Source of the DNA: Acidobacteriota bacterium
GTDB lineage: Bacteria; Acidobacteriota; Thermoanaerobaculia; Multivoradales; JAGPDF01
Assembly: GCA_014584695.1 (NCBI GenBank)
Contig: JACTMI010000010.1
Span: forward strand, 124,001 to 188,000
Reading direction: 5' to 3'
DNA length: 64,000 nucleotides
How positions within the stretch are numbered: the stretch's first letter is position 1; every line of letters starts with the position of its first letter. Below, one piece after another: positions 10,468 through 45,910 of this stretch. The notes beneath the pieces are model-generated. The model was given only the letters and a program-made list of their open reading frames with translations, searched no databases and was not told where the DNA came from. A program made the position numbers and the translations under genes.

Positions 10468-11310
10468 CTACGGGCAGGTCTGGAAAGCGTTGGTGTCGGT
10501 GACCGCCGGCGCCGAGACGCCGAGGGCGTTCTCGTAGACCTTGAAAGCACCGGTGTAGGTGTCGAGCACGGTGATCTGGAACTCGACGCTGGTCACCGCG
10601 GCGAAGAAGACCCAGTAGCGGTTGTTGAAGCCGCAGGCGTCGAGCACCTTGATCATCACCTCGAAGTTCGAGGGCGAGAAGAACCAGATCACGCCCGAGT
10701 CCTGCGAGCCGAGCGGCACGAAGCGGCCGCTGCCGGTGTTGCCCTGGAAGTCGCGCCAGGTCGCGCTCACCCGGAACCGCCCCTTGCCGAGCTCGGTGTA
10801 GCGGCCGTCGTAGGCGGGCATCGAGCCGTCGCCCGCGAGCACCCGCGTGGCGCCCGAGCAGGCGACGAAGTTCGAATAGCTGCCGCTGGCGCCGGGCTCG
10901 GCCGCTGCGGTCACCAGGTAGTAGCTCTGGTTCGAGTTGAGGGTCTCGTTCTGGATCGTGGACGAGCCCTTGCCGAGCTCGCCGTCGTCGTTGGCCGCTT
11001 CGAGGTTGGCGAGCGGCGTCGAAGGATCGAAAGCGCCCCGGTAGAGGTAGATCCAGCCGTCGAATGCCCCCTCCTGGATGCTGCGGATCGTGCAGGTGGC
11101 GTTGGCGTCGACGAAGAAGGGCTGCACGCCGTAGCCGACGATCTTGCCCGACAGGCTCGCCGTGTCGGCGTTCGGCCGATTGAAAGTCAGGCCGGTGGCG
11201 GTGGTGCCGTAGAAGGAGAACGCGGCCGCGGCCTCGACCGGCGTGCCCGGCAGCGCGAGCAGCGTCGCGGCGGCGAGGAGCGGGAGGGTTTGGCGGGTCC
11301 AGGGGATCAC
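10468..11310 (-). CDS. Secreted protein: PPC-like domain plus recurrent unnamed C-terminal domain
   Basis: 280 residues from GTG, with a signal peptide ending near ...PGTPVEAAAA (about residue 28). Residues 60-150 resemble a bacterial pre-peptidase C-terminal (PPC) beta-sandwich: FDGWIYLYRG, then LEAANDDGELG and YYLVTAA. Residues 176-280 form a second domain. Its pattern GRFRVSATW, FVPL, GVIWFFSPSNFEVMIKVLDACG, YWVFFAAVTSVEF and a final ...CP recurs twice in the secreted protein at 42066-44096. No enzymatic residues are evident, so a binding, adhesive or cell-envelope role is likely. It lies 71 nt downstream of polA and 64 nt upstream of the kinase, all on one strand. Confidence 0.8.
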   Translation of the reverse strand: MIPWTRQTLPLLAAATLLALPGTPVEAAAAFSFYGTTATGLTFNRPNADTASLSGKIVGYGVQPFFVDANATCTIRSIQEGAFDGWIYLYRGAFDPSTPLANLEAANDDGELGKGSSTIQNETLNSNQSYYLVTAAAEPGASGSYSNFVACSGATRVLAGDGSMPAYDGRYTELGKGRFRVSATWRDFQGNTGSGRFVPLGSQDSGVIWFFSPSNFEVMIKVLDACGFNNRYWVFFAAVTSVEFQITVLDTYTGAFKVYENALGVSAPAVTDTNAFQTCP

Positions 11311-41175: not shown

Positions 41176-42069
41176 ATGGCCCGACCGATCGAGAGAATCG
41201 CCGTGCTGGGCGCCGGGACGATGGGGCGCGGCATCGCCCACGTCGCGGCGCTCGCCGGCTACGAGACCGCGCTCTACGACGTCGATCCGCAGGCGCTGGC
41301 GCGCGCCGAGGAGGCGATCCACCGCAATCTCGACAAGGGGGTCGCGGTGGGCAAGGTCGACGCCGCCGAAGCCGAGGCGGCCAAGGGCCGCCTGGCGCTC
41401 GACACCGATCTGGGCGCCAGCGTCGCCGAGGCCGACCTGGTGATCGAAGCGGCCCCGGAGTCGATCGCGGTCAAGGTCGAGCTGTTCCGCTCGGTGGGCT
41501 TCCACGCTCGCCACGACGCGCTGTTCGCGACCAACACCTCGGCGCTGTCGGTGACCGAGATCGCGGCCGCCTCCGGCCGCCCCGAGCGCTTCGCCGGCAT
41601 GCACTTCTTCAATCCGGTCCATCTGATGAAGCTGCTCGAGCTGGTGCGCGGGCTCGAGACCTCGGCCGAGACGGTGGCGGTGCTCGCGGCGGTCGGCGAG
41701 CGGATGGGCAAGGAGGTGGTCGTGGTGGCGGACAGCCCCGGCTTCGCGACGTCGCGCATCAACGCGTTGATCGGCAACGAGGCCTTTCGCATGCTCGAGC
41801 AAGGAGTCGCCGGCGCCGAGGAGATCGATCGGGCGATCCGGCTGGGGTTGAATCACCCCATGGGTCCGTTCGAAATGGCCGACCTGGTCGGGCTCGATGT
41901 CCGGCTCTCGATCCTCGAGCACCTCGCGTCGACGCTCGGCGAGACCTTTCGCCCGGCCAACCTGATGCGGCGTTACGTGCAAGCCGGGCGGCTCGGCCGC
42001 AAGGTCGGCCGCGGTGTCTACGAATACGACGCCGAAGGGCGCCGGATCCCAGGGAGCGATCGCCCGTGA
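41176..42069 (+). CDS. 3-hydroxybutyryl/3-hydroxyacyl-CoA dehydrogenase
   Basis: 297 residues, standalone length. The NAD-binding motif AVLGAGTMGRGIAHVAA is followed by the catalytic-region TNTSALSVTEIA, GMHFFNPVHLMKL (catalytic His) and a C-terminal 3HCDH domain (LGLNHPMGPFEMADLVGLD). ATG 41176 is preferred, with GAGG seven bases upstream; a GTG at 41170 is also possible. It oxidises L-3-hydroxyacyl-CoA to 3-ketoacyl-CoA. Its stop overlaps the GTG of the secreted propeller gene. Confidence 0.94.
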   Translation: MARPIERIAVLGAGTMGRGIAHVAALAGYETALYDVDPQALARAEEAIHRNLDKGVAVGKVDAAEAEAAKGRLALDTDLGASVAEADLVIEAAPESIAVKVELFRSVGFHARHDALFATNTSALSVTEIAAASGRPERFAGMHFFNPVHLMKLLELVRGLETSAETVAVLAAVGERMGKEVVVVADSPGFATSRINALIGNEAFRMLEQGVAGAEEIDRAIRLGLNHPMGPFEMADLVGLDVRLSILEHLASTLGETFRPANLMRRYVQAGRLGRKVGRGVYEYDAEGRRIPGSDRP

Positions 42070-44096
42070 GCCCGCGCCGATCGATGTCCGCCCTGCTCGC
42101 CGCCCTCCTCCTGCCGGTTGCCGCCGAAGCGCAGGTGACCTACCTCGGTTCGGAGAGCCAGATCAACCTCACTTCGGCCGGCGCCCAGATCGCCCCGGCG
42201 GTGGCCGCGGCCGACCTCGGCGGCCACTACTTCGTCGCCTGGCAGAGCTTCGACCAGGACGGCAGCGGCGCGGGGGTCTACGGGCGGCTCTTCTCGGCCG
42301 AGGGCCAGCCGCGCACGGGCGAGGTGCTGCTCGCGACCACGACGGCCGGCGACCAGGTCACGCCGGCGCTCGCCAGCCGCTACGACCTGTTCCAGGCCGT
42401 GTGGGCCGCGCAGGGCAAGGACGGCGACGGCTTCGGCATCGTGCTGCGCCGCTTCGACCATCTGGGCGCGCCGATCGGCGGCGAGATCCTGGTCAACACC
42501 ACCACCGCTGGCAACCAGATCTCGCCCAGAGTCGCCGCCGCCGACCCGCAGTTCGTGGTGGTGTGGACCGGACCCAATCCGGCCGCGCCGTCGCAGACGG
42601 AGGTCTGGGCACGCCGCTTCGCGCTCGACGGCCAGCCCTTCTCGGGCGAGCTGCGCGCCAACGCCACGACCTCGGGCAACCAGTCGCAGCCGGCCGTCGC
42701 GGTCGCCACCGACGGCTCGTTCCTGGTCGCCTGGACGAGCGACCAGGGGGACGGCTCGGGCTACGGCGTCTTCGCCCGTCGGTTCGACGCCGCGGGCAAC
42801 GCCACCACCGGCGACATCGTGGTGCCGGCCGCGACGCTGTTCGATCAGACCTCGCCCGCGGTCGCGGCCCTCGCGACCGGGGGCTACGTGGTGGTCTGGT
42901 CGAGCGCGCTCCAGGGCCTGCCGTCGCCGCTCGGCCCCCAGCCGATCGTGCTCGCGCAGCGCTTCGACTCGCTCGGCAACAAGGTCGGGCCGCCAATCCA
43001 GGTCACCGCCCAGTCGTTCGATCGCCAGGAAGCTCCGGCCGTCGCCGCCGAGGGCGGCGGCGGGTTCGTCGTCGCCTGGGAAGCGACGGTGGCCGGCTCC
43101 GGCGACCGGCAGACGCGCGGCCGCCGCTACGACGCCTCCGGGTCCGCCACCACCGGCGAGTTTCCGCTCAACACCACCGCCGCAGGCGACCAGGCCGCGC
43201 CGGCGCTCGCCACCCAGCCCGGCGGCCGCTTCGTCGCCACCTGGGCGAGCTTCGGCCAGGATGGCAGCTCCTGGGGGATCTTCGGCCAGCGCTTCGGCAC
43301 GCCGCTCGAGCCCTGCGTCGCGGACGACACCACGCTCTGCCTCAACGACGGCCGCTTCCGGATCACCGTGTCGTGGGCGACCGCGCTCGGCACCTCGGGC
43401 GCCGGCCGGGCGGTGCCGCTCACCGGAGATACCGGCTACTTCTGGTTCTTCGACGCCGCCAACGTCGAGATCGTGATCAAGGTCCTCGAGGCCTGCCACC
43501 CGTTCGGCAACTACTGGGTCTTCGCCGGTGGGCTGACCAACGTCCAGGCCACGATCGTGGTCGCCGACACCGAAACCGGCGAGACGCACGCCTACGCCAA
43601 CCCGCTCGGCACGATGTTCCAGCCGATCCAGGACGCCGGCAACTTCTTCGTCTGCTCCGGCGCGACGACGCCGCCCGCGGCCGCCCGCGCGGCTCCCGTC
43701 TCGACGCGCGCGAGCACGGGGAGCACCCAGCAGGCCCTGGCCGCGCCCTGCACACCGAACGCCGAGACGCTCTGTCTGAACGGCGGCCGCTTCGAAGTGA
43801 AGGTGGACTGGACGACCTTCCAGGGGCAGTCGGGCACCGGCAAGGCGGTGCCGCTCACCGCCGACACCGGCTACTTCTGGTTCTTCGGCCCCGCCAACGT
43901 CGAGATGGTGATCAAGGCGCTCGACGGCTGCGGCATCAACCAGAGCTACTGGGTCTTCGCCGGCGGGCTGACCGACGTCTTCACCCGCATCCGCGTCCGC
44001 GACACCGTCACCGATCTGGTCTGGGAACGGACCAACCCCCAGCAGACGCCGTTCCAGCCGATCCAGGACGTCAACGCCTTCCCCGCCTGCCCGTAG
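42066..44096 (+). CDS. Secreted seven-repeat beta-propeller protein with two recurrent C-terminal domains
   Basis: 676 residues with a signal peptide (1-22). Residues 33-412 hold seven repeats of about 54 residues, each with a QxxPAVA-like strand, FVVxW and RRFDxxG: the layout of a seven-bladed propeller. Residues 417-530 and 562-676 are two copies of the domain also found at the C-terminus of the 10468-11310 protein (LCLNGGRF, AVPLTADTGYFWFF, NVEMVIKALDGCG, YWVFAGGLTDVF, PFQPIQD). A Ser/Thr/Ala linker joins the copies. GTG start overlaps the dehydrogenase stop, an odd pairing of a cytoplasmic enzyme with an exported protein. Function unknown. Confidence 0.85.
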   Translation: MSPRRSMSALLAALLLPVAAEAQVTYLGSESQINLTSAGAQIAPAVAAADLGGHYFVAWQSFDQDGSGAGVYGRLFSAEGQPRTGEVLLATTTAGDQVTPALASRYDLFQAVWAAQGKDGDGFGIVLRRFDHLGAPIGGEILVNTTTAGNQISPRVAAADPQFVVVWTGPNPAAPSQTEVWARRFALDGQPFSGELRANATTSGNQSQPAVAVATDGSFLVAWTSDQGDGSGYGVFARRFDAAGNATTGDIVVPAATLFDQTSPAVAALATGGYVVVWSSALQGLPSPLGPQPIVLAQRFDSLGNKVGPPIQVTAQSFDRQEAPAVAAEGGGGFVVAWEATVAGSGDRQTRGRRYDASGSATTGEFPLNTTAAGDQAAPALATQPGGRFVATWASFGQDGSSWGIFGQRFGTPLEPCVADDTTLCLNDGRFRITVSWATALGTSGAGRAVPLTGDTGYFWFFDAANVEIVIKVLEACHPFGNYWVFAGGLTNVQATIVVADTETGETHAYANPLGTMFQPIQDAGNFFVCSGATTPPAAARAAPVSTRASTGSTQQALAAPCTPNAETLCLNGGRFEVKVDWTTFQGQSGTGKAVPLTADTGYFWFFGPANVEMVIKALDGCGINQSYWVFAGGLTDVFTRIRVRDTVTDLVWERTNPQQTPFQPIQDVNAFPACP

Positions 44097-44122
44097 GCAC
44101 GGCGCCCCCCCCTCGACGGATC

Positions 44123-44154
44123 GCGCCCCCGGAGCCGTGCCGCTCCGGGGGCGC
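44123..44154 (+). terminator. GC-rich hairpin after the propeller gene
   Basis: Perfect 12-bp stem (GCGCCCCCGGAG/CTCCGGGGGCGC) with an 8-nt loop, 27 nt past the stop at 44096. No U-tract follows, so it is a non-canonical terminator or stability element by position. Confidence 0.55.
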
Positions 44155-44282
44155 CCGCCCGCCGCGCGCCCATGGCCCGCGGCGCGCCGAGCGTGCGCGT
44201 AATGGTCGAGAAAGAGGACCGCGCCTCCCCGCCGGTCGATCTCACGGCACCAACGACACGCTCAACCGAGAGGAAACAGCTC

Positions 44283-45101
44283 ATGACGCTCCCCACCATC
44301 GATCTCGCCGCCCTCAAGTCCCGTCAGCAGGGGGCGTGGTCCACGGGCAATTACGCGGCGGTCGGCACGACGCTCCAGATCGTCGGCGAGAGCCTCTGCG
44401 AGGCGCTCGACTTGCGCGCCGGCTCGCGCGTGCTCGACGTCGCCGCCGGCAACGGCAACGCCACCCTCGCCGCCGCGCGCCGCTTCTGCGACGTCACGTC
44501 CACGGACTACGTCCCGGCGCTGCTCGAAGCGAGCCGCAAGCGCGCCGACGCCGAGGGTCTCGCGGTCCACTATCGCGAGGCCGACGCCGAGAACCTGCCC
44601 TTTCCGGACGCCACCTTCGACGTCGTGCTCTCCACCTTCGGCGTCATGTTCACCCCCGACCAGGAGCGGGCGGCCGCCGAGCTGGCGCGCGTCTGCAAGC
44701 CGGGGGGCCGCATCGGGCTCGCCAACTGGACGCCCGAGAGCTTCATCGGGCAGCTGTTCCGGACCATCGGCCAGTACGTCCCGCCGGCCCCGGGCGTGAA
44801 GTCGCCCGCGCTCTGGGGCTCGACGGCGAGGCTGGAGGAGCTGTTCGCCTCGACCGCCTCGAAGATCCAGGCCACCCGCCGCGAGTTCGTCTTCCGCTAC
44901 CGCTCGCCCATGCACTGGGTCGATTTCTTCCGCACCTACTACGGCCCGATGAACCGGACCTTCGCGGCGCTCGACGCCGAGCAGCAGGCCGACTTCACCA
45001 GCGACCTGTTCACGCTGCTCGAACGCGGCAACCGCTCCGGCGACGCCACGCTGGCCCTGCCGAGCGAGTACCTGGAGGTCGTCATCGAGCGTCGCCGCTA
45101 G
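44283..45101 (+). CDS. SAM-dependent methyltransferase (UbiE/class I type)
   Basis: 272 residues from ATG 44283, preceded by GAGAGGAAA. Motif I VLDVAAGNGNATLAAA, motif II-like DAENLPFPDATFDVV and post-II VCKPGGRIGLANW identify a class I methyltransferase of the UbiE/COQ5-like group. The substrate is unknown. It is flanked on both sides by strong hairpins, so it is probably transcribed alone. Confidence 0.9.
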   Translation: MTLPTIDLAALKSRQQGAWSTGNYAAVGTTLQIVGESLCEALDLRAGSRVLDVAAGNGNATLAAARRFCDVTSTDYVPALLEASRKRADAEGLAVHYREADAENLPFPDATFDVVLSTFGVMFTPDQERAAAELARVCKPGGRIGLANWTPESFIGQLFRTIGQYVPPAPGVKSPALWGSTARLEELFASTASKIQATRREFVFRYRSPMHWVDFFRTYYGPMNRTFAALDAEQQADFTSDLFTLLERGNRSGDATLALPSEYLEVVIERRR

Positions 45102-45130
45102 CCCCGATCGCGGAGCTGGCTCGCTTCACC

Positions 45131-45157
45131 GCCGGCCGCTCGCTGGGAGCGGCCGGC
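45131..45157 (+). terminator. GC-rich hairpin after the methyltransferase gene
   Basis: Perfect 11-bp stem GCCGGCCGCTC/GAGCGGCCGGC with a 5-nt loop, 29 nt past the stop at 45101; no U-tract. Confidence 0.5.
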
Positions 45158-45250
45158 CCTGGCAGGGGTGCGCGACCGATCCCCGTGGCGGCCCGCGCGC
45201 CATCTCGAACTTCAACCCGCAACATCAGCAGGTCCAACAAGGAGCAGCAG

Positions 45251-45910
45251 ATGACCGGTTCAACGAAGTCTCACGTCCTGGGCCTCGAGCCCCACCCGAG
45301 CCGCGGCCGCCAGTGGGCGCCGCGCCACCTCCTGATCGCCGGGCTGATCGCTCTCGGAGCGCTCTCCACGGCCGCGACCGTCTCCGCCCACGGCCGCATC
45401 GACCCGCCGCCGGTGCCGGCGAACCTCGAGGTGCCGACCGGCCACCGCGCGTACCTGATCACCCGCGCCTACGGCACCCAGAATCAGATCTGCCTGCCCA
45501 ACGCCAGCTCGAGCACCGGGCTGGCGTGGAGCTTCTTCGGTCCCCAGGCGACCGGCTTCGACGCCCGGGACGGGCAGGTCCTGACCCACTATCTGAGCGC
45601 CAACCCCGACGAGGCCGGTGCCGCCCGCCCCACCTGGCAGCACTCGAAGGACACCAGCGCGGTCTGGGCGCAGGTGGTCGCCTCCTCGCTCGATCCCGAC
45701 TACGTCGAAGCGGGCGCGATTCCGTGGCTCCTGCTGCAGATCGTCGGCGCCGAAGAGGGCCCGACCGGTGGCGACAAGCTGACCGCGACCACCTACATCC
45801 AGCGCGTCGAAACCGTCGGCGGCGTCGTCGTCTCGCCCGAGTGCTACGTGCTCGGCGCCAAGCTGCTGGTCCCCTACGAAGCGGACTACGTCTTCTACCG
45901 GGCGCGCTGA
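45251..45910 (+). CDS. DUF3455-family secreted protein
   Basis: 219 residues. AAGGAG lies eight bases before ATG 45251. One hydrophobic segment (about 26-45, ending TVSAHG) looks like a long signal peptide with a charged leader. The mature part follows the DUF3455 pattern: LEVPTGHRAYLITRAYGTQNQ, WSFFGPQAT, IPWLLLQ, TYIQRVETVGG and VPYEADYVFY. Function unknown; likely periplasmic or extracellular. It is followed by a hairpin at 45938 and by the palindromic element at 45983. Confidence 0.82.
   Translation: MTGSTKSHVLGLEPHPSRGRQWAPRHLLIAGLIALGALSTAATVSAHGRIDPPPVPANLEVPTGHRAYLITRAYGTQNQICLPNASSSTGLAWSFFGPQATGFDARDGQVLTHYLSANPDEAGAARPTWQHSKDTSAVWAQVVASSLDPDYVEAGAIPWLLLQIVGAEEGPTGGDKLTATTYIQRVETVGGVVVSPECYVLGAKLLVPYEADYVFYRAR

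Follow-up and report, generated by a model that had tools for sequence, protein, structure and literature searches.

Portable C-terminal modules of secreted proteins are a well-known kind. The C-terminal domain of the T9SS in Bacteroidota is a sorting tag that is removed after use; such domains (TIGR04183/TIGR04131 type) are small beta domains at the ends of unrelated exported proteins, are present in many copies per genome and are lineage-bound. PPC (PF04151), a portable beta domain spread across bacteria, is carried C-terminally by secreted proteases and by various other proteins. Carbohydrate-binding modules (CBMs) are beta domains of about 100-120 residues that are joined in one or two copies to enzymes through flexible linkers and have conserved aromatics.

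We describe here a domain from the Acidobacteriota, a bacterial phylum of soil and sea, that has these likenesses to all three systems and departs from each. Unlike the T9SS sorting domains, it also has tandem, internal and free-standing copies and two conserved, predicted disulphides. Unlike PPC, it was seen only in Acidobacteriota and in two viral-database contigs. Unlike the CBMs, it has passengers that share no substrate. When 123 copies were scanned, no T9SS sorting-domain profile of Pfam or NCBIfam and no PPC profile matched (E up to 0.1 in both cases), nor did the CBM families in Pfam. The domain is a new family of portable C-terminal module, without a clear structural relative in the PDB. 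Acidobacteriota of the Thermoanaerobaculia type are widespread and hardly cultivated.

The domain in the window

The window, by which we mean the whole stretch of DNA analysed, is 64,000 nt long and comes from one contig of an Acidobacteriota genome (JACTMI010000010.1, positions 124,001-188,000). A preliminary description, made from the letters of the window, had proposed a recurrent secreted C-terminal domain in three copies shared by two proteins. Both open reading frames exist as claimed (Table 1). The three copies are related: their pairwise local alignment scores are 329, 226 and 236, and the highest score in a control of 300 shuffles per pair is 57. When all six frames of the whole window are searched with a profile, exactly these three are found. 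The copies lie where they had been placed, within profile limits slightly wider than those first given. The motifs that had been listed are recognizably related in all three, with copy 3 reading GVIWFF for GYFWFF and NFE for NVE. The C-terminal position has to be amended for copy 1, which is internal: its last cysteine, C530, is followed by a linker of 28 residues.

Table 1. Coordinates of the domain-bearing genes of the window and of loci elsewhere that are discussed in the text
Feature	Location	Strand	Description
Gene A	42066..44096	+	Exported 676-aa protein: signal peptide, repeat-built beta-propeller, two C-terminal domain copies
Probable signal peptide of gene A	42066..42131	+	MSPRRSMSALLAALLLPVAAEA; sequence reading and heuristic score
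Gene A passenger, beta-propeller	42138..43301	+	Residues about 25-412; AF2 model and Foldseek; no Pfam family
Domain copy 1	43308..43658	+	Residues 415-531; Cys 417, 425, 477, 530
Linker of gene A, Ala/Pro/Ser/Thr-rich	43659..43742	+	Predicted disordered; pLDDT <50 at residues 531-558
Domain copy 2	43743..44093	+	Residues 560-676 (protein end); Cys 562, 570, 622, 675; AF2 pLDDT 97.5
Gene B	10468..11310	-	Exported 280-aa protein: signal peptide, N-terminal domain of ~140 aa (family uncertain), one C-terminal copy
Domain copy 3	10471..10818	-	Residues 164-280 (end of the gene B protein); N-terminal Cys pair absent, second pair kept
Retroelement loci in G184	L207 10149-14717; L208 1132-6720; L206; L209-L211
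Free-standing exported domain protein	L086, L101, L106, L108, L190
IMG/VR contig proteins	L220 3104-4453; L221 1-1158		Related to each other; Pro/Thr-rich linkers and domain

The secreted nature of the two proteins agrees with the signal peptides visible on reading their sequences. The start of gene A may be either the GTG at 42066 or the ATG at 42084. Attachment to a propeller, which had also been proposed, is borne out: the best PDB matches of the full-length model of gene A are beta-propeller proteins, and Foldseek matches it to CylK and to sialidases with E down to 6e-11. The model has a pLDDT of 80, and 10-residue blocks of its propeller part lie mostly at 66-93. A Pfam search of this passenger found no family. 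The other proposed partner, a PPC-like domain in gene B, found no confirmation in Pfam (E up to 10).

Conservation and predicted structure

Alignment A1 comprises 123 copies of the domain, which is about 117 residues long. Its consensus is CxxxxxxxLCLNxGRFxVxAxW...VxLTxDTGYFWFFxxxNVExVVKVLDGCxxNxxFWVFAGGLTNVEVxLTVTDTxTG...YxNPxGTxFxPxxDTxAFxxC. R16, K58 and D87 are invariant and N52, E54 and D41 nearly so; the aromatic motifs GYFWFF and FWVF are strongly conserved. The cysteines form two pairs (3 with 11, 63 with 116). Both pairs are present in 72 copies, the first only in 31 and the second only in 17, and gain or loss by pairs fits 120 of the 123 copies, leaving 3 exceptions. Because the cysteines are present or absent as pairs, two independent disulphides, Cys3-Cys11 and Cys63-Cys116 in domain numbering, are supported. 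Disulphides that form outside the cytoplasm would be expected to be lost in this pairwise way. Tandem copies of one protein are a median of 61% identical vs. 42-43% between proteins; best-hit tests of their independent origin gave mixed results.

The AlphaFold2 model of the domain made with A1 (pLDDT 97.5, pTM 0.90) has ten strands and one short helix, and confidently predicts an all-beta domain. We compared the fold with the PDB and BFVD, and claim no new fold. Foldseek searches with the domain model gave a best E of 0.15 in the PDB and of 0.026 in BFVD, and in neither a match at E <=0.001. The best match of a second structural look (VIA) was a levivirus coat protein, with Z 5.8 and rmsd 3.6 over 72 residues. 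Z values below 8 are common among unrelated folds. Neither membership in a known fold of the PDB or BFVD nor kinship with levivirus coats was accepted, since the Z value is within the chance range and no Foldseek match reaches E 0.001. We take the likeness to this and other antiparallel beta folds in the PDB as structural resemblance only and claim no relation. As the model is without a clear relative in the PDB, the domain is a good target for structure determination.

No family name was known to the preliminary description, and searches of Pfam, NCBIfam and the PDB sequences linked the domain to none that has been described. Pfam gave no significant match for the window copies or for the 123 aligned copies, and NCBIfam and the PDB (by sequence) gave none for the domain. 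Assignment to a known family was rejected, as the matches were scattered and none recurred significantly. Nor is the domain described in the literature searched, which includes few of the subscription journals.

Architecture, passengers and export

Architecture was read from 153 proteins with a stop codon, a biased sample in that the loci were fetched by similarity. In 141 of them the last copy lies no more than 10 residues from the protein end, which is at variance with the short motif, C-terminal hydrophobic helix and basic tail of sortase and PEP-CTERM substrates; such a tail was seen only in a viral-contig protein (L220). Two copies are present in 60 proteins and three in none, and most of the linkers joining copies abound in Ala, Pro, Ser, Thr and Gly. 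Internal copies are found in 12 proteins: eight of these continue into an FGE domain, and one is a broken frame at a contig edge. In G184, taken as a whole genome, the domain closes 33 of 44 frames. The first frames seen had been almost strictly C-terminal (124 of 128), and the lead of a pure sorting tag that they offered was dropped on the internal copies in G184.

The portability that had been suggested is evident from the 153 proteins, which fall into 54 passenger groups (passengers of few residues included). Pfam recognizes peptidases (S8, M10, M12-like, M14, trypsin and PA), other enzymes (alkaline phosphatase, sulfatase, GH8, GSDH and PAP2), and also plastocyanin-like copper-binding, Laminin_G_3, Calx-beta, fn3, PPC, spondin, LRR and beta-helix passengers, to name those most readily classed; the list is not complete. 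PPC accompanies the domain in five proteins other than gene B of the window. Export of the domain proteins through a signal peptide is predicted: a clear signal-peptide-like N-terminus is present in 115 of 143 scorable proteins by a heuristic score, most others have hydrophobic N-termini, and a lipobox is found in almost none.

Large exported proteins made of ELWxSDGTxxGT repeats (L175, L177, L182 and others) regularly end in two domain copies. They are probably propellers; Pfam did not recognize the repeat proteins of L175 and L182.

The domain can also stand free. An exported protein of 143 to 163 residues, consisting of a signal peptide and one copy, is conserved in one family. Directly upstream of it are genes for a tricorn-type S41 peptidase and for a TM7S3/TM198-like membrane protein, the latter named from a weak Pfam match below its cut-off. 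Conservation of this copy together with its neighbors implies that the domain has a role without cargo.

Distribution

A profile search of the window genome found 27 copies in about 19 proteins. G184, a closed genome of the same order, has 66 copies, and eleven more genomes have 15 to 65 each. The cargo genes number dozens and are scattered over the genome. When 396 Acidobacteriota genomes were surveyed, the domain was matched in all 23 sampled genomes of the window's order, in 7 of the 24 other genomes of the class and in 14 of the remaining 349. Outside the order, the domain is sporadic within the phylum.

A broader scan covered 84,980 bacteria and archaea, one genome per species. The best 80 of 121 confirmed loci all have Acidobacteriota-type titles bar one, many of them Thermoanaerobaculia or Holophagales. 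Remote members elsewhere are possible, since this count concerns the best 80 of 121 loci only and the scan detects only fairly close relatives. Spread to another phylum was considered for an assembly titled 'Deltaproteobacteria' (L052, JAHZIX01) and rejected. Its matches are at the same coordinates as those of G380, a genome of the window's own order, and the title is thus likely a misclassification.

The plasmids and named phages searched gave no match to the domain, and two IMG/VR contigs did. The L220 protein has a signal peptide and, after the domain, a C-terminal hydrophobic anchor. RtcB, next to it, is the sole viral-contig neighbor identified by PHROGs; the neighbors in L221 are helicase-like and methyltransferase-like frames.

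A diversity-generating retroelement in G184

Eight proteins of G184 consist of an N-terminal export signal (weak in one), the domain and a C-terminal domain of the FGE-sulfatase type. The FGE domain that follows the internal copies is 230-240 residues long, and its last ~40 residues are hypervariable. Two reverse transcriptase genes and two template repeats adjoin three of the eight genes. For the two nearest FGE genes, 14 of 16 and 16 of 19 VR-TR differences are at template adenines. The other FGE genes also differ mostly at adenines, least clearly in the most divergent one. From these sequence patterns, at least eight FGE-type proteins of G184 are probable targets of a diversity-generating retroelement. 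Described targets of such elements are displayed binding proteins. Through the retroelement, the domain is linked in one lineage to binding proteins that are diversified. G184 may be alone in having this fusion, since in 15 congeners the FGE part and the domain part were matched mostly in separate frames. The window genome has no RVT_1 match.

Proposed function and alternatives

We tentatively propose, at somewhat less than an even chance, that the domain is a surface-retention or display module for exported proteins. Unrelated passengers, predicted to leave the cytoplasm via a signal peptide, would carry it once or twice at the C-terminus. The domain would bind a common surface ligand of these Acidobacteriota, be it a glycan, lipid or protein, and the binding would retain or display the passengers on the outer surface of the cell envelope, much as other portable surface modules do. 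Two copies in one protein may serve avidity. The passengers have no chemistry in common, so their fusions are easier to account for by a shared destination than by a shared substrate; a domain added to such proteins by the dozen per genome, mostly terminally and in one lineage, most simply marks where they go. The proposal also draws on the predicted export, the ending of most proteins in one or two copies, the pairwise loss of cysteines, the link to retroelement targets in G184 and the free-standing copy conserved with its neighbors. The earlier suggestion of an envelope or binding module may likewise hold, as nothing found here contradicts it. Three points weigh against display. The C-terminal preference by itself is also what a sorting signal, a stability cap or a module for substrate binding would show, the free-standing protein would anchor only itself, and the hydrophobic anchor in L220 implies that the domain would not be the sole anchor there.

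Among the passengers are some with polymers as substrates (GH8, sulfatase, beta-helix proteins and proteases). Together with the conserved aromatics and the one or two copies on flexible linkers, they could mark a CBM-like accessory module that takes secreted enzymes to an environmental polymer. We consider this unlikely: most passengers are without a common substrate and only few are glycoside hydrolases, the position of the domain is far less free than is usual for such modules, and the aromatics may be mere core residues.

The C-terminal preference, the unrelated cargo encoded by dozens of scattered genes and the lineage restriction would also suit a sorting signal, read by a dedicated outer-membrane translocon or attachment machine and possibly then removed, as in the T9SS. 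This we find less likely still, in view of the copies internal to the eight G184 proteins and to other proteins, the tandem copies, the conserved free-standing copy and the lack of a match to Pfam or NCBIfam sorting-domain models. A T9SS domain would be terminal and single throughout; here 12 of the 153 proteins have internal copies and 60 have two. The SprA_N profile matched 0 of 26 genomes of the order, and control genomes gave no match either. No Ig-like sandwich of T9SS C-terminal domain structures is among the structural matches listed, an absence that excludes nothing. We give similarly little credence to the idea that an undescribed Acidobacteriota system for surface attachment or export, with a dedicated envelope receptor or translocon, uses the domain as its address tag. 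If true, such a system would serve dozens of cargo proteins per genome, the lectin-like binders diversified by the retroelement included.

Most doubtful is a disulphide-braced, ligand-free cap that shields exported proteins from proteolysis or aids their folding. A compact fold, modelled with high confidence and reaching to the very end of the protein, would suit it, as would the disulphides and the indifference to passenger, but the conserved charged and polar residues exceed what a cap needs (though they may form buried salt bridges), and in the free-standing protein there is nothing to be capped.

Retention or display at the surface is thus favored because a sorting tag fails on the internal, tandem and free-standing copies, and a substrate module fails on the passengers. 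A profile built from A1 would pick out, in each genome, about 20 to over 40 exported proteins now annotated as hypothetical or by their passenger alone. The domain also gives a way to test how these bacteria position their enzymes outside the cell.

Neighboring genes in the window

Gene A overlaps the preceding gene, for a 3-hydroxyacyl-CoA dehydrogenase, by four bases (42066-42069), which suggests translational coupling of the exported propeller protein with a metabolic gene. The long frame at 42014-45910 is mostly spurious and holds a gene only at its 3' end, where 45137-45910 encodes a DUF3455 protein (PF11937, E 4e-19).
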